From contig CATAJQ010000046.1 of assembly GCA_949487135.1 (NCBI GenBank), positions 1 to 62,372 of the forward strand: 62,372 bases of DNA. The letters run 5' to 3'. Below, one piece after another: positions 22,913-36,189 of the stretch. The stretch's first letter is position 1, and each line of letters opens with the position of its first letter. A program made the translations under genes and the position numbers. The notes under the pieces are model-generated. The model saw only the letters and a list, made by a program, of their open reading frames with translations. It searched no databases and was not told the DNA's origin. This DNA comes from Cellvibrionales bacterium UBA7375. GTDB lineage: Bacteria; Pseudomonadota; Gammaproteobacteria; Pseudomonadales; Porticoccaceae.

Positions 22913-24655
22913 TTATTGTGCTTGAAGATTAGTAATCCACACGGTTTGATAAGGGGCTAATTCGATAATTTGATGCTTTTCGTTAAATGTATCACCAGAA
23001 ATTAGGTCAAACCAATTCTCGGTATCGATTAGGTTTAAATCAGACATTTCTAATGTTTGCATCTGGTTACTGATATTGCTGACACAAAAAATACTCTGCT
23101 CTCGATCCATGCTTTGACGCCAAAAGCCAAATAATTGTGAACCAAGATGGAGTGTGAATTGGGTAGCATTAGGGTGAAAAGCCGATTGATTACTGCGAAT
23201 ATTAAATAGAGATTTTAAGCGGTTATAAACTTGGTGATGGGTGCTGGTTTCGTCATTTAATTCGCTCTGAAGCGTTTTATAATCCCATTGATGGCGGTTA
23301 ATTGCTCGATTATGCCCACTATTTTCAGCGCGCTGATAGTCATTTTTGGTACCAACCAAGCTGTGGATATAGATGCCGGGAATACCTTCAAGCGCCAGCA
23401 TAATCGCATGGGCGCATAAGAAACGCTGTAAGCCGTTTTCATCGGCACCATCTTTTGTTCCCTGCAGTGCATCAAATAGAGAGATATTGATCTCATAGGG
23501 TTTGCGAGTGACATTTTCCGCATTGCGCCAAGAAATTAAGCCGCCAAATTGCTGCATAGTGCTGACCAGTGAATCAATTTCCTGTTCATCTAACAGCCCC
23601 TCTGCGGGTCTGAGGCCAATACCGTCATGAGAGGCAATAAAGTTAAAGTATGCGGTGCCATTGCGAGCGGGCGGCATACTCATCATCCATTGCTTTAAGT
23701 GGTCGCAACTCCCGGTGACAAGGGTATTTACAAGTAGGGGAGGCAACGAGAAGTTATAGATGCAATGAGCTTCGTTAGCATTGCCAAAATAGGCTAAATT
23801 TTCACGGTTGGGTATATTGGTTTCTGTAATAATGATTGCATCAGGTCTGGCCTGTTCAATCAAAGACCTAAGTAGGCGAACAACCTCGTGGGTCTGCTCT
23901 AAATTTAGACAGTTGGTGCCAATTTCTTTCCATAGGAACGCCACAGCATCTAATCTAAAGATTCGCACACCATGATCAAGATACTGACGAATAATACTGA
24001 CAAACTGTTTAAGGACTTCAGGGTTTTTAAAGTTCAGATCCACCTGATCATGACTAAAGGTACACCACACATGTTGAGTCCCCTCGGCCGTTTCCACTTC
24101 ACGTAATAAATCATTTGTTCGCGGCCTAACCACTGCACTTAAATCATCTTCGGGGCTGGCGGTAAAAAAGAAATTGCGACCGGGGTCACGATTCTTTTTA
24201 AAATTATCAAACCACAGACTTCTAGCAGAACAGTGGTTGATCACCAAATCAGCCATTAGCGAGTAATTATCAGCAATGGCAACAATATCATCCCAATCAC
24301 CAAGACTTGGATTGACGGTAGAATAATCTAAAACAGAAAAGCCATCATCGGTGGTAAAAGGATAAAACGGCAGTATATGAACGCCGTCTATCATATCCTT
24401 GCTATAGCTATCTAAGAACGACTTTAAGCTGGCTAGCGGCTGTCGCTCAGGTTCTAGAATACTGTCACCATAGCAAATTAGAATACTGTCTTTCTCATTC
24501 CAGTGATTAATATAGCGATTTTTTATCGGCTCAATATTCTCCAGCCGCATCAGCTGAATAAGTTCAGCGGCAAGATTATCAGTGTTATCGACTTCAGTGT
24601 CTCGATAAATAAACTCAAGGTGATGTTCAATTTGTTGAGTGAGCGCGGATGACAT
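22913..24655 (-). CDS. GH13_18 glycoside phosphorylase, probably glucosylglycerate phosphorylase
   Basis: A 580-residue alpha-amylase-fold protein of the sucrose phosphorylase group. Catalytic residues visible are the nucleophile Asp236 (FRLDAVAF), the acid/base Glu278 (IITETNIPN) and the transition-state Asp344 ([10 protein letters not shown]). GH13_18 includes sucrose phosphorylase, sucrose-6-phosphate phosphorylase and glucosylglycerate phosphorylase (E. coli YcjM type). Its position 20 bp after gpgS and gpgP makes glucosylglycerate the likely substrate, cleaved by phosphate to glucose 1-phosphate and glycerate. No signal peptide is visible, so it acts in the cytoplasm. Sucrose specificity cannot be excluded from motifs alone. 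Confidence 0.8.
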
Positions 24656-24675: not shown

Positions 24676-25902
24676 TTATTGGTTACTAAATTCTTTGTGA
24701 TCTTCTTCGACGGCATGAATTAATTCGTCAAAAATATCCGGTACGGCACTGACTACACGGTTCCAGCTGGGAATAAATGGTCGCTCCATAGGGCAAGTGA
24801 AAAACAATTCACCTGCTTTCATAATATTTTCGGCAAACATTTCTACTGCCTGCTCCTCTTGATGAACATCCAGTGTTAAACCATTCATAATAGCGTCGTT
24901 GTGACAGGTCTCAATAACATCCAGTGCCATGCGGTAATAGGTCGCCTTAAGCGATCTAAACGCCTCTTGGCTAAATACCTCCCCCTGAGTAGCTAACTTT
25001 CGATAAAGAGCCTTAGCGATATCGATGGACATCTTAGATAGCCCATCTGAGTCGTTATTTAAAGACAACTTCTGATGCTTGTGGTCATAGGTGTCCGCAA
25101 TATCCACTTGGCAAAGCCTGTTGTTGGCATAGTTGCGGTACATTTCTGAAAGAACACCAATTTCGAGCCCCCAGTCACTGGGAATACGGATATCGTTAAG
25201 CACATCGCGGCGGAAAGAAAACTCCCCCGCCAATGGATAACGGTAACTGTCCATGTAGTTTAAATAATCAGTGTGACCCACTGTTTTCTTAAGGGCGCGT
25301 AGTAAGGGAGAAACTAATAGGCGAGAAACGCGTCCATTAATTTTGCCGTCCGCTACCCGAGCGTAATAGCCTTTACAGAACTCATAGTTAAACAGTGGGT
25401 TGGCGACAGGGTAGATTAGCCTAGCGAGAAGTTCACGGTTGTAGGTGACAATATCACAGTCATGCAAAGCCACTGATTCAGCCTTATTAGATGCAAGAAT
25501 ATAGCCCATGCAGTACCAAACATTGCGACCCTTGCCCATCTCTTTAGGGGCTAGATCTAAATCTTGCAGTTTCTTGTCCAATGCACGCAATCTTGGGCCA
25601 TCATTCCACAGCACGCGAAAATCCTGCGGTAACCCAGAGAAGAACTTTAGCGCATCGCGATATTGGTTTTCATCGGCACGGTCTAAACCAATCACAATCT
25701 GATTTAAGTACGGCACCTTTTTAAGTTCTGAAATAATAAGCGGCATCGCCTCGCCTTCAAGTTCAGAGTAAAGTGAAGGCAAAATTAGACCCAGAGGTCT
25801 TTTCTTGGAGAATTCAACCAGTTCAGATTCCATATCCTCTAGTGGACGTTTAGATAAATTGTGCAATGTTGTAATAATGCCGTTTTGATGAAAATCACCC
25901 AT
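24676..25902 (-). CDS. gpgS: Glucosyl-3-phosphoglycerate synthase
   Basis: Transfers glucose from a nucleotide sugar to 3-phosphoglycerate, the first step to the compatible solute glucosylglycerate. The 408-residue GT-A type protein resembles the GT81/GpgS family. It has LPSLYSELEGEAMPLI near the N-terminus, RALDKKLQDL and MGKGRNVWYCMGY for donor binding, and the metal-binding HDCD (Asp148, Asp150). Its start overlaps the end of gpgP by eight bases. The order phosphatase-synthase-phosphorylase makes a dedicated operon. Confidence 0.88.
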   Translation of the reverse strand: MGDFHQNGIITTLHNLSKRPLEDMESELVEFSKKRPLGLILPSLYSELEGEAMPLIISELKKVPYLNQIVIGLDRADENQYRDALKFFSGLPQDFRVLWNDGPRLRALDKKLQDLDLAPKEMGKGRNVWYCMGYILASNKAESVALHDCDIVTYNRELLARLIYPVANPLFNYEFCKGYYARVADGKINGRVSRLLVSPLLRALKKTVGHTDYLNYMDSYRYPLAGEFSFRRDVLNDIRIPSDWGLEIGVLSEMYRNYANNRLCQVDIADTYDHKHQKLSLNNDSDGLSKMSIDIAKALYRKLATQGEVFSQEAFRSLKATYYRMALDVIETCHNDAIMNGLTLDVHQEEQAVEMFAENIMKAGELFFTCPMERPFIPSWNRVVSAVPDIFDELIHAVEEDHKEFSNQ

Positions 25903-26767
25903 AAATTTTACTACCTATTTCTAAAGAATTTTTAAGCCAAAAAGACACAGACTCAGCCCAGCCTTGGGGTCCGAAATCACTGCTAATTAACAGATTATTT
26001 TTCCGATTTAAGGTTGGTGGCATATGTGTTTTTGAGCGAATTATAATTGCGCTAGTCGCAGCTTCTAGCATACTTATGTCGTTGCCACTATCACCAATGG
26101 CTAGGCTATGGACTTCCTCAAGGGAGTTGAGTTGTTGATAGATTTTAACCAGTTGCAGTAGGGTGCTGCCCTTATTCACCTTGTCGCCAAGCGCTAGAAA
26201 TCGCCCACCTTGCAATAGTGTTCCACCTGCTGCCGATAGTTTGTCGATAAATTCTTGTTTACGCTGTGCACTGCCCAGCCAGTGAATGGGCTCACTATAT
26301 TTTCGCTTATTGCTTAACTCAGCTTGGTCTAAGCTCAACCCAGTAATATCTTGAATACCTTTTAGCCCCCTATCAGACACAATGCTAGCAAAGGTTTCAA
26401 ACTCACCTTCAAAGTCTTGGGCAAAGTCTTCTAGTAAGTTGTTCCAATGTTGACGAGGTTTACTATTGGCAACAATCCAAAAGCCAGACTCTTCAGCCCA
26501 GTGTTGGGGTATGGTTGGGAAATATTTAGTTGGTATGGCAATGGCTGCACCGTTTTCGACAATAAACGGATGACGGTTGTTTAATGTTATGCGCAGTTGT
26601 TCCACTTCAGCAAAGGTTTTACTGGTAATGGGTATTACTGGAATTGCTCTAGTTTCCAGCTCTTCTAATAATGGTTTAGCAGCATCGAAGCGGTAACTAT
26701 CATGATCCAATAAGCTTCCATCAAGATCAGTGAATACAAGCGCTTGTGTCGAAGAAATTACAGACAT
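25895..26767 (-). CDS. gpgP: Glucosyl-3-phosphoglycerate phosphatase (MPGP-like HAD phosphatase)
   Basis: Removes phosphate from glucosyl-3-phosphoglycerate to give glucosylglycerate. The protein has 290 residues from the ATG at 26765-26767. The HAD motifs are Asp14 and Asp16 in FTDLDGSLLD, PITSKTF, the lysine region SNKRKYSEPIHW, and AIGDSGNDISMLEA. It belongs to the mannosyl-3-phosphoglycerate phosphatase branch; the neighbouring gpgS points to the glucosyl substrate. An upstream in-frame ATG (26798-26800) would put coding sequence over the NtrC box, and an AGGGG site precedes the lower start, so I chose the latter. Confidence 0.87.
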   Translation of the reverse strand: MSVISSTQALVFTDLDGSLLDHDSYRFDAAKPLLEELETRAIPVIPITSKTFAEVEQLRITLNNRHPFIVENGAAIAIPTKYFPTIPQHWAEESGFWIVANSKPRQHWNNLLEDFAQDFEGEFETFASIVSDRGLKGIQDITGLSLDQAELSNKRKYSEPIHWLGSAQRKQEFIDKLSAAGGTLLQGGRFLALGDKVNKGSTLLQLVKIYQQLNSLEEVHSLAIGDSGNDISMLEAATSAIIIRSKTHMPPTLNRKNNLLISSDFGPQGWAESVSFWLKNSLEIGSKIYG

Positions 26768-26782
26768 GCAAAAACCCCTATT

Positions 26783-26799
26783 TGCACTATTTTGGTGCA
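26783..26799. promoter_or_regulatory. NtrC binding box upstream of the glucosylglycerate operon
   Basis: TGCACTATTTTGGTGCA matches the NtrC consensus TGCACC-N5-GGTGCA at 11 of 12 defined bases and closely resembles the known glnA enhancer sites. It lies 15 bp before the gpgP start codon and about 90 bp downstream of the start point predicted from the sigma-54 element. Confidence 0.75.
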
Positions 26800-26856
26800 T
26801 GTTATGGTTTGGCCTTCGAACCCGCGTGTGGCTGTTACTAACATCAATGTCCTATG

Positions 26857-26871
26857 CGCTGAATTTCAGCG
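26857..26871. promoter_or_regulatory. 15-bp inverted repeat in the gpgP leader
   Basis: CGCTGAA and TTCAGCG are perfect 7-bp arms around a single T. It lies about 90 bp before gpgP, in the predicted transcribed leader. It may be an operator or a small RNA hairpin; there is no T-run after it in the direction of transcription. Confidence 0.45.
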
Positions 26872-26899
26872 AAAAATTACATATATGTCAGGGTTTAAA

Positions 26900-26915
26900 G
26901 CAGTAATCGTGCCAA
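26900..26915 (-). promoter_or_regulatory. Sigma-54 (-24/-12) promoter of the glucosylglycerate operon
   Basis: Minus-strand TTGGCACGATTACTGC contains the -24 GG and -12 GC at the required 10-base spacing. It differs from the RpoN consensus TTGGCACG-N4-TTGC at one base. Transcription would start near 26888 and run toward gpgP. Confidence 0.75.
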
Positions 26916-26983
26916 TTTTTGCATAAAGATTTTGTTATTAAAAATACCAAGTAATAGAGCAAGAATAGGGAGAAAAAATTGGC

Positions 26984-27283
26984 TTAGACAAGGAGTGCGC
27001 CTAGTTTCATCGCAATGCCCATATCTCCGCTTACTTTTAAACGACCTGTCATAAAAGCAGACACACCATCCAGTGATCCCTCCGCCATGGCCATAAAGTC
27101 CTCGACACTAATTACCATCGTACAATCGGGGTCGGCGCCCTCAGTAGAGACAATATTAGGCACTTGCGAAGCATCTAAAATAACACTTCCCTCATCACCG
27201 AAATCAAACTTAACGACAGATCCAAGCCCGCAGTCCTCACCCACTTTTTCCTGTAGACCGTCAATAATAGTTTGTAGTGTCAC
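26984..27283 (-). CDS. SCP2 sterol-transfer family protein
   Basis: A small 99-residue protein of the SCP2 lipid-binding fold: ILDASQVPNIVS, the PDCTMVISVEDFMAMAEG segment and FMTGRLKVSGDMGIAMKL follow the family pattern almost end to end. Such proteins bind acyl chains or acyl-CoA. It lies 34 bp downstream of the thiolase on the same strand, so they are probably co-transcribed and a role in fatty acid breakdown is reasonable. The ligand is unknown. Confidence 0.85.
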   Translation of the reverse strand: MTLQTIIDGLQEKVGEDCGLGSVVKFDFGDEGSVILDASQVPNIVSTEGADPDCTMVISVEDFMAMAEGSLDGVSAFMTGRLKVSGDMGIAMKLGALLV

Positions 27284-33453: not shown

Positions 33454-36189
33454 TTATCGCCCAATTTTGATCGATTGAAATATTGACTCTTGTTCAGATT
33501 CCTTAATACGAGAGTCTAGTTCATTGCGGATGGTTTGCTTAAGCTCTTCGCCTAATTCGTCATTATCAATCGGCTGATTATCATGGGTCCTTAGGTAAAA
33601 AGTGTCCTCAACGCGTTCACCGAGAGTGGAAATTTTTGCATTGTAAAGTACAAGATCATAGCGCTCGAAGATATTGCCAATTTTAGCCAGTAGTCCCGGG
33701 CGGTCAGGGGTAATAACCTGCAATATGCTTGTATCTGTCTCGCTATCATTGCGCAGAGATACTTTTGTCTTCATGGTGAAGTTTTTCAACTGTCTTGAAG
33801 TGCGACGTGAAACATTCAGATTAATCTTTTCTGGCGATTGTATGGCTGTTTTTAAGCTGTCAGAAATATTCTTGCAAAGCTTTTTATTGCTACCGACGGG
33901 GAGATCATTTCCATCTAAAACATAAAACACATCAAAAGTTCGATCATCACTAGTGGTCTGTAACCTTGCATCTTGAATGGTTAAGCCAAGCTTATCTAGT
34001 GTCGCAGCAACAATAGCAAACAGATTTTTGGTGCTCTTGGTATGTAAAAATATCTGTGTAGCTACAGGAATCTCAACCCCAACGTCACGAATCTGAATAA
34101 CCGCTTGTTCATCACTGCTATCAATAATGCCCTTGGTGAAAAAGGCTATATCCTCAGCTCGTTCGCGTAAAAAGAATTGATCGTCAACATCGCCCCAAAG
34201 TTCATTCGCATCAGCCTCGTCGACTGATTGATGCTCAAGGATTTTTAGAACTGACTGCTTAGCATCGTTCACCCAGGCATCGCGATTTGCTGGCTCATCC
34301 AAGCCGGATTGAAGAACCTGCTTGGTTTCAAAGTAGAGGTTGCTCATAAGGGCACCTTTCCACTCTGTCCACAATCTAGGGTTGGTTGCATTGATATCGG
34401 CAACAGTTAATACCCATAGATGGTCTAGATGACGTTGATCACCCACATGCTTGGCAAATTTATAAATTACATCGGGATCGGATGTGTCCTCGCGCTGGGA
34501 GATAGTTGACATCAAAAGGTGATTTTCAATCAACCACTTTAATAATGAAATTTCCTGAGCTTGTAACCCGTGACGTTCACCAAATTCAGCGACATCCACG
34601 GCACCAAGAATCGAGTGATCACCACCGCGTCCCTTGGCAATATCGTGGTACAGCGCAGCAATAATAATAAGTTCAGGTTTGGGTAGATTCTTAAAAATAT
34701 GAGAAGAAACAGGAAACTTAGCGGCTTCCTCTGGCTGAACCAAGCGTCTAATATTAGTAATTAATTCAAGCGTGTGGACATCAACCGGGTATATATGAAA
34801 TAAATCATGTTGTGTCTGCCCAACAATTTTTCCAAATTCAGGTAGGTAGCTACCAAGAATGCCATAGCGGTTCATAAGTTTTAGATGAACAGAGAGCTTG
34901 TAGGGCGAGCGCAATAGACGCATAAATAACTGTCGGTTAATTGGGTCTTCTCTAAATTCTGAATTGATCATTTTTCTGTGCAGACGCAATTGACGTATAG
35001 CTGAAGCGCGAATACCTTTGAGGCTCTCAGTCTCACCTAGTACAACAAACAGCTCCAACAGGGCGGAGGGGTGCTTGGTAAATAGATCATCATCTATGGT
35101 ATCGAGATAATTGTCTCTAATTACAAAACGATCATTGATCTTTTTTACGACCCTAGTTTTATTTTTGCGATATATCGCTTCATCTAGATATTGAAGAAGT
35201 ACGTCCGTTAACTCGCGAATAGACAAAACCGTTTGATAATAACGCTGCATAAACTTCTCAACAGCTAATTTGCCGTTACCATCCTTATAGCCGAGCAGGG
35301 CGGCAAGTTGACGTTGATGATCAAATAACAGGCGCTCTTCTGGGCGTTCAGCTAGATAATGAAGACCGTATCGCACTTTCCACAAAAACTCCTCGTCTTT
35401 GTGCAGGGTTAAATACTCCTCCTCAGAGAGAAAACCACTATGTACCAACTCAGAGCGGCGATGGACATCAAAATGACGTTTAGCGGTCCAATTAATTAAC
35501 TGTATATCTCTAAGTCCGCCGGGCGCTTCTTTAACATTGGGTTCTAAATTATATTCAGTATCCTGATGTTTGTGATGCCGGGCACTTTGCTCGTCAATTT
35601 TACCTTTATAAAATTTCGATGAACGCCAGATTTTTTTTGGGCCAGTCTTCTTTAGCATGAGTTGCAAAAGATCACTATTGCCACAAACCAAACGCGTTTC
35701 CATTAAATTAGTAGCGACAGAGATATCAGCTTTGGCCTCGTCGACACATTGTGAAATTGAGCGAACACTGTGGCCAATTTTGAGCTGTATATCCCAAAGA
35801 AACGTAATAAACAATTCAATGCGCTCTCTGTATGCCTTAGAAAAATCCTTGCGCATTAAAATTAGAAGATCAATATCCGAGTGGGGGTGTAATTCACCTC
35901 GCCCGTAACCACCTACCGCAACAAGGCTGACGTTCTCATCCCATTCATATTGGTTCCAGGCATGCCACAGAAGAACATCGGCAAACTGCGATGCCTCATT
36001 GACCAGTGATCGAGCATCTTCACCCTCCAGAAAGCGATTATCAAAGTGATTTTTAGCTGCGCTTAAAGCATGCTTGAATACTTTGATTGGGTTTTCAGTT
36101 GCCAAATCGGCGACAAAACGCTTTTGGTCAAAAAAGATAGGTGCACGATTAGTGGGCAGTAATGGTTGGTCAGAACAAGTACTTGGCAT
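33454..36189 (-). CDS. glnD: [Protein-PII] uridylyltransferase / uridylyl-removing enzyme
   Basis: Main sensor of glutamine in enteric-type nitrogen control: it uridylylates PII when nitrogen is short, which raises NtrC activity and deadenylylates glutamine synthetase. The domains in its 911 residues are a nucleotidyltransferase with GGYGRGELHPHSDIDLL (93-109; Asp105, Asp107), the GlnD helical region, an HD hydrolase (LYHDIAKGRGGDHS, around 510-525), and two C-terminal ACT domains, the last beginning LQVITPDRPGLLAKIG. The order map-glnD next to rpsB is the E. coli order. It bears on the NtrC box at 26783-26799. Confidence 0.97.
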   Translation of the reverse strand: MPSTCSDQPLLPTNRAPIFFDQKRFVADLATENPIKVFKHALSAAKNHFDNRFLEGEDARSLVNEASQFADVLLWHAWNQYEWDENVSLVAVGGYGRGELHPHSDIDLLILMRKDFSKAYRERIELFITFLWDIQLKIGHSVRSISQCVDEAKADISVATNLMETRLVCGNSDLLQLMLKKTGPKKIWRSSKFYKGKIDEQSARHHKHQDTEYNLEPNVKEAPGGLRDIQLINWTAKRHFDVHRRSELVHSGFLSEEEYLTLHKDEEFLWKVRYGLHYLAERPEERLLFDHQRQLAALLGYKDGNGKLAVEKFMQRYYQTVLSIRELTDVLLQYLDEAIYRKNKTRVVKKINDRFVIRDNYLDTIDDDLFTKHPSALLELFVVLGETESLKGIRASAIRQLRLHRKMINSEFREDPINRQLFMRLLRSPYKLSVHLKLMNRYGILGSYLPEFGKIVGQTQHDLFHIYPVDVHTLELITNIRRLVQPEEAAKFPVSSHIFKNLPKPELIIIAALYHDIAKGRGGDHSILGAVDVAEFGERHGLQAQEISLLKWLIENHLLMSTISQREDTSDPDVIYKFAKHVGDQRHLDHLWVLTVADINATNPRLWTEWKGALMSNLYFETKQVLQSGLDEPANRDAWVNDAKQSVLKILEHQSVDEADANELWGDVDDQFFLRERAEDIAFFTKGIIDSSDEQAVIQIRDVGVEIPVATQIFLHTKSTKNLFAIVAATLDKLGLTIQDARLQTTSDDRTFDVFYVLDGNDLPVGSNKKLCKNISDSLKTAIQSPEKINLNVSRRTSRQLKNFTMKTKVSLRNDSETDTSILQVITPDRPGLLAKIGNIFERYDLVLYNAKISTLGERVEDTFYLRTHDNQPIDNDELGEELKQTIRNELDSRIKESEQESIFQSIKIGR

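Follow-up and report, generated by a model that had tools for sequence, protein, structure and literature searches.

A predicted NtrC/sigma-54 promoter with its NtrC box in the transcribed leader of a glucosylglycerate operon in the SAR92 clade

Genes and promoter of the locus

The window (the whole stretch of DNA that was analysed, 62,372 nucleotides of contig CATAJQ010000046.1 from Cellvibrionales bacterium UBA7375) carries a compact row of three genes, gpgP-gpgS-ggaP, which is presumed to be one operon. The features used below, all on the minus strand, are:

22913–24655, minus strand: ggaP, GH13_18 glucosylglycerate phosphorylase (sucrose-phosphorylase family, TETN, loop-A Glu)
24676–25902, minus strand: gpgS, glucosyl-3-phosphoglycerate synthase (NF040724, solved GpgS structures)
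25895–26767, minus strand: gpgP, glucosyl-3-phosphoglycerate phosphatase (mannosyl-3-phosphoglycerate phosphatase family, HAD-IIB; TIGR01486)
26775–26779, minus strand: probable Shine-Dalgarno sequence AGGGG of gpgP, read from the sequence
26799–26783, minus strand: predicted NtrC box TGCACCAAAATAGTGCA of the 5' leader (22.3 bits by the matrix built from glnA sites)
26888, minus strand: inferred transcription start (+1), 12 bases past the -12 C, deduced from the element only
26914–26899, minus strand: sigma-54 element TGGCACGATTACTGCT (-24/-12), predicted promoter of gpgP-gpgS-ggaP
26984–27283, same strand as gpgP: SCP2-domain gene, the upstream neighbour
33454–36189, minus strand: glnD, PII uridylyltransferase (TIGR01693, 878 bits, cut-off 519)

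The gpgP product passed the cut-off of TIGR01486 (195 bits, cut-off 165); the gene probably starts at the ATG at 26767, 7 bases after AGGGG, and the start at 26800 given by the ORF finder would place part of the NtrC box within the gene. The gpgS product matched NF040724 with 370 bits (E 1e-110), under the equivalog cut-off of 700, and solved GpgS structures with E 1e-5; a gpgP relative directly precedes gpgS in 58/59 loci (L001–L059). The ggaP product contains TETN and the stretch KPYEINIS, with Glu in place of the loop-A Gln of sucrose phosphorylase (loop A placed by eye). According to PMC7178133, in part, a (T/S)ETN motif and a loop-A Glu mark glucosylglycerate phosphorylase in GH13_18, and passages of PMC11009771 and PMC7178133 place the genes of this enzyme near the synthesis genes.

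The sigma-54 element fitted the core TGGCACG-N4-TTGCW at 11/12 positions with GG and GC 10 apart, which confirmed the minus-strand -24/-12 element with GG-N10-GC spacing described in the earlier note. The window was scanned with the pattern TGGCACGNNNNYTGCW, which permits C or T at the sole position where the element deviates; the gpgP element was the only fit with 0 mismatches and the other 10 matches had 2 mismatches, the total of 11 matches with at most 2 mismatches being no excess over chance (16 expected). A scan of 26700–27100 for sigma-70-type promoters found none. With +1 at 26888, the NtrC box would cover about +90 to +106, with its centre near +98; about 70 bp of non-coding DNA lie between the promoter and the SCP2-domain gene. 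The leader also contains an inverted repeat, CGCTGAAATTCAGCG, at 26857–26871 (about +18 to +32); akin repeats, some of their changes paired, were seen in L065–L067 and none in L068/L069.

Genes for both regulators were found in the window's genome by profile match, as the earlier note had asked for rpoN and glnG: RpoN (TIGR02395, E 7.9e-141, over the cut-off) and NtrC (TIGR01818, 739.6 bits), the latter being, among the matches listed, the single one of 8 TIGR01818 matches over the NtrC cut-off. The NtrC translation keeps the GAFTGA and GESGTGKE motifs, by which it would be able to engage sigma-54. GlnD is encoded in the window, as had been claimed. The nearest named relatives by GpgS (95–99% identity) carry the label Pseudomonadales, Porticoccaceae or SAR92 clade, a widespread marine clade, and the operon is found in the genomes of the cultured SAR92 strains HTCC2207 and H231.

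Scoring of the NtrC box

The 17-mer at 26783–26799 agreed with TGCACC-N5-GGTGCA at 11/12 bases, as previously noted. By itself the plain consensus count is weak evidence, because 2 matches with at most 2 mismatches were found in the window and 2.0 were expected. A matrix was built from the upstream regions of glnA in 30 congeneric genomes, the window's own included; its 67 training sites (at least 9/12) contain no gpgP site, and a few of the 67 are chance matches, the lowest training score being -1.8. Over the 62 kb this independent matrix gave the gpgP box 22.3 bits and the runner-up place 10.0, a gap of 12 bits, and in random sequence a score of 14 bits or more comes up about 0.007 times per kb.

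The own genome (1.44 Mb, 92% complete) was also searched with the pattern GCACYN5RGTGC, which fitted 9 places, against 1 for the reversed control. Ranked by score, the top five of these lay at ntrB, gpgP, glnA and, twice, amtB; sixth place went to a match in a coding region (17.4 vs 18.5 for the fifth). The box preceding ntrB in this genome shares its inner 15-mer with the gpgP box. In a second congener the pattern fitted 16 places (control 2) and gpgP ranked 4th, after one ntrB and two glnA sites; in a third it fitted 12 places (control 3) and gpgP ranked 5th, after two glnA sites, amtB and ntrB. The labels glnA, ntrB and amtB of the congener sites were assigned by position beside profile matches. 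The gpgP leader of the window holds a single NtrC box, where two or more sites would be looked for, and the box sits downstream of the promoter instead of in the usual upstream position (UAS, ~100–150 bp).

Between the own glnA and ntrB (L267 1500, 1615) an NtrC box was seen 115 bases before a good sigma-54 element, which suggests that ntrBC in this genome may have a separate NtrC-driven promoter.

Conservation in congeneric genomes

The genus sample comprised 50 genomes including the window's own, 32 of them with gpgS; without G376, whose gene is divided between two contigs, there were 31 loci with 31 different leaders, to be read as related genomes and not as independent observations. All 31 gpgP loci had a sigma-54 element of at least 10/12, and all 31 had an NtrC box between the element and gpgP (12.7–24.3 bits); shuffled leaders predict 0.2 such loci at a threshold of 12.5 bits, chosen post hoc just below the weakest box. 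Both motifs are thus present in the close relatives, whose lack of them the earlier note had named as grounds for giving up its proposal. From element start to box start the distance was 104–195 bases, which puts the box centres at about +87 to +178; the odd position pointed out earlier, about 90–105 bp downstream of the predicted start, is that of the box in the window, and a placement downstream of the promoter is kept across the genus. In the 250 bp upstream of the promoter no NtrC site was found in any of the 31 loci, the best score being 5.1 bits (in L091, 133 of the 250 bases are N). A second downstream match of at least 7 bits was present in 7/31 loci, each weaker than the first.

The leaders were aligned in groups and inspected by eye. 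Element and box were kept while much of the flanking leader had diverged, and in L072, L075 and L077 an upstream block that the neighbouring genomes keep was absent and element and box were retained. No other conserved site shared by all alignment groups was seen. Several group-C genomes have a conserved block of their own above the promoter, which by inspection may be a sigma-70-like promoter that serves the divergent gene. In two other SAR92 genomes (L187 1374–2906, L192 1059–2585) the gene upstream of gpgP is divergent and acyl-CoA-synthetase-like by translation.

In group B (L070–L079) half-sites TGGTGCG-N4-CGCACCA, or near variants, were seen just before gpgP, which suggests a pair of NtrC dimer sites at a spacing of 21 bp; by the matrix the second site was found with 16.1 bits in L076 and, as a weak match, with 7.5 bits in L073, and in the rest of the group it was placed by eye only. 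By eye, the right half-site seems to overlap the gpgP ribosome-binding site.

Comparison with glnA and amtB

For comparison, 30 loci each were taken for glnA and amtB, out of 50 and 49 genus genomes with a match. At glnA a pair of upstream sites was found in 30/30 loci, about 110–180 bases before the element and mostly near -120 and -150, a result that is partly circular because the matrix was trained on those sites; one of the 30 loci also had a weak downstream match. The gpgP locus resembles glnA (E. coli glnAp2 as well as glnA of the genus) in sigma factor, regulator, box and the proposed nitrogen-limitation signal, and differs in that glnA has paired upstream sites whereas the gpgP box lies downstream in 31/31 loci.

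The second comparison gene, amtB, is a classic NtrC-activated gene. Its promoter was sought only at -245 to -225, a range picked after an earlier look, and was found in 29 loci and not in L137. In 29/29 of these an NtrC box lay downstream (d=101–104). Upstream sites of at least 10 bits were present as well in 21/29, and 8/29 had the downstream box only, defined as no upstream site of at least 10 bits (L124 and L125 have upstream scores of 9.3 and 9.8). At the own amtB (L164/L291) NtrC boxes flank the sigma-54 promoter on both sides, at about -63, -30, +63 and +103 from the element start. Genus amtB is thus like gpgP in combining a sigma-54 element with a downstream NtrC box, and unlike it in the upstream sites of 21/29 loci, where gpgP has none, and in the further site at +62 of many amtB loci. 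Downstream boxes at amtB mean that downstream NtrC boxes recur in the genus and are no accident of gpgP. Outside the genus amtB had downstream boxes in 6/29 loci (L295, L299, L301, L304, L308, L309), counted by eye, with no null computed.

Proposed mechanism and alternatives

Sigma-54 polymerase requires a bEBP activator, and the leader box is the sole recognisable activator site at gpgP. That the operon is under NtrC/sigma-54 control as such is highly probable from the motifs and their conservation, and phosphorylated NtrC probably activates gpgP-gpgS-ggaP from the downstream leader box. The promoter at 26914–26899 would transcribe gpgP-gpgS-ggaP; under nitrogen limitation phosphorylated NtrC would bind the DNA of the 5' leader at the box centred near +98 and loop back, and its AAA+ domain would open the sigma-54 polymerase complex. 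The cell would then produce the nitrogen-free solute glucosylglycerate, which the ggaP phosphorylase could turn back into glucose-1-phosphate and glycerate.

The earlier note had left open whether NtrC acts from the downstream position or represses. A repressing or capping role, with NtrC as a roadblock or 'governor' bound in the leader and another bEBP, or NtrC from solution, as activator, is unlikely. Low-affinity NtrC governor sites at E. coli glnA limit transcription at high NtrC~P (PMC3870243, in part), and in Caulobacter, with an unconventional NtrC, an operon that has an NtrC peak inside it, downstream of its promoter, is expressed more highly when ntrC is mutated, the directness of the effect being unclear in the portion of PMC10274813 used here. 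The gpgP box also lies close to the ribosome-binding site, which the right half-site of group B seems, by eye, to overlap. The E. coli governor sites, however, are of low affinity and subordinate to upstream enhancers, whereas the gpgP box is high-scoring and the only one seen, with no upstream NtrC site or enhancer found in the 31 loci, and no other upstream block is common to all groups (by eye). The same downstream box is carried by amtB, and shutting a nitrogen-sparing pathway during nitrogen shortage would make little sense. Downstream activation is favoured on these grounds, and roadblock or governor-like damping could coexist with it.

The remaining alternatives concern the box itself. 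If +1 is right the box is transcribed, and its inverted repeat can fold; a terminator-like fold was reported on the opposite strand, and the outermost pair alternates between T-A and C-G. An RNA hairpin in the leader in place of a DNA operator is nevertheless very improbable: the 31 loci have 26 distinct boxes, in which 34/156 cells over the six outer pairs were unpaired, the outermost in 10/26, and the hairpin is rejected because at pairs 4 and 6 the left base is constant, the right varies and no change restores the pairing. The glnA enhancer sites, which lie upstream of their promoter, moreover span a score range that includes the gpgP box, and the 3 Rfam matches in 26700–27100 were all under their gathering scores. 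Binding by a different regulator with an NtrC-like site would draw on the further bEBP-like proteins among the 8 TIGR01818 matches of the genome, and is just as improbable given that the inner 15-mer equals that of the ntrB box, that the matrix was trained on glnA alone and that one match among those listed (739.6 bits) is over the NtrC cut-off. An origin of the motifs by chance, or as neutral sequence passed on by descent, would agree with the plain consensus matches (at most 2 mismatches), which do not exceed expectation in the window; it is scarcely credible beside boxes in 31/31 loci against 0.2 expected, their retention where flanks diverged (by eye) and the high rank of the gpgP box in the pattern search of the genome.

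Activation from the leader box was compared with published geometry. In the sections of PMC7408454 used, NtrC sites at glnA need a minimum of ~70 bp from the start, bEBP sites occur as far as 1.5 kb downstream, and one two-site NtrC system depended on the face of the helix. The gpgP boxes of the genus (about +87 to +178) exceed the ~70 bp minimum and a box in Neptuniibacter (d=59) falls short of it. The bEBP sites reviewed in PMC7057263, as far as that text was covered, lie 100–150 bp upstream, contrary to the gpgP arrangement. Box distances cluster suggestively near multiples of about 11 bp: with 9 collapsed distances p was 0.12 at a period of 10.5 bp and 0.0095 if the period ranges over 10.2–11.3. 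A p of 0.0002 obtained from 15 near-duplicate distances was discarded as overstated, the collapse to 9 weakening it.

Relation to known systems

Binding sites for bEBPs inside the transcribed region are known from flagellar genes, with Caulobacter FlbD/ftr and Vibrio FlrC as examples. Such flagellar downstream enhancers share with gpgP the location of bEBP sites for sigma-54 promoters in the transcribed region, and differ in having other regulators, other genes and no nitrogen signal. FlbD and ftr are treated in a review (PMC3930126, in part), in which the term 'downstream' does not occur. For NtrC itself, the open-access papers searched gave no account of a downstream enhancer beyond a synthetic circuit, judged by title.

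Glucosylglycerate rises with salinity, nitrogen starvation and low-nitrogen media in certain organisms and is linked to mycobacterial recovery from nitrogen starvation (PMC11009771, in part). These reports share solute and trigger with the proposal made here and come without known NtrC/sigma-54 control. The earlier note knew of no described NtrC-controlled gpgS operon, and none was found in the open-access papers searched either, a search that leaves most subscription papers outside and absence unproven. The genome comparison lends good support to a predicted new target of the known regulator NtrC and to an unusual position of its putative enhancer. If the proposal holds, the choice between nitrogen-free glucosylglycerate and nitrogen-containing compatible solutes would be tied directly to the NtrB/NtrC cascade, and the genus would offer a natural case, genus-wide, of a promoter whose one recognisable NtrC site is located downstream of the start, an arrangement that the description 'upstream activating sequence' does not cover.

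More tentatively, and with the balance of likelihood against it, SAR92 and some relatives may possess a distinct class of nitrogen-responsive sigma-54 promoters whose sole strong NtrC enhancer lies in the leader, as at gpgP and, in some of the genomes, at amtB. Each launched polymerase would then have to pass bound NtrC, a built-in self-limitation, and such promoters would suit compact genomes because they take up hardly any room upstream.

Occurrence outside the genus

Loci outside the genus were searched before gpgP for a pair of a sigma-54 match of at least 9/12 and an NtrC match of at least 12 bits, 20–260 bp apart. Besides the genus, 47 genomes of the order had gpgS, and 45 of them entered the order set (G358 is cut at a contig end and G272 was counted under the class); for the class, 38/274 genomes had gpgS including the window's own, and 29 others were taken as loci, 28 of them with gpgP. 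From 80 loci of named genomes 12 genus members were removed, together with L213 (no gpgP sequence) and the repeats L200 (an order locus), L240 and L241 (both equal to L234), which left 64.

The pair was found in 8/45 order loci (shuffles 0.04), one of them in coding sequence (L036) and one weak (L035), in 0/28 class loci (shuffles 0.08) and in 5/64 named-genome loci (shuffles 0.08). All loci read from the SAR92 genus have the pair; beyond the genus it is patchy, and the majority of the gpgP-gpgS loci examined there are without it. By eye, NtrC-like matches before gpgP in L036, L043, L046 and L052 resemble conserved coding sequence of the upstream gene and were not taken as operators, although L036 is included in the 8/45. 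The five named genomes with the pair are SAR92-cluster AG-896-F13, Halioglobus NAT121, Reinekea forsetii, Neptuniibacter and Pseudomaricurvus, and among the pairs outside the genus both upstream and downstream placements of the box occur.
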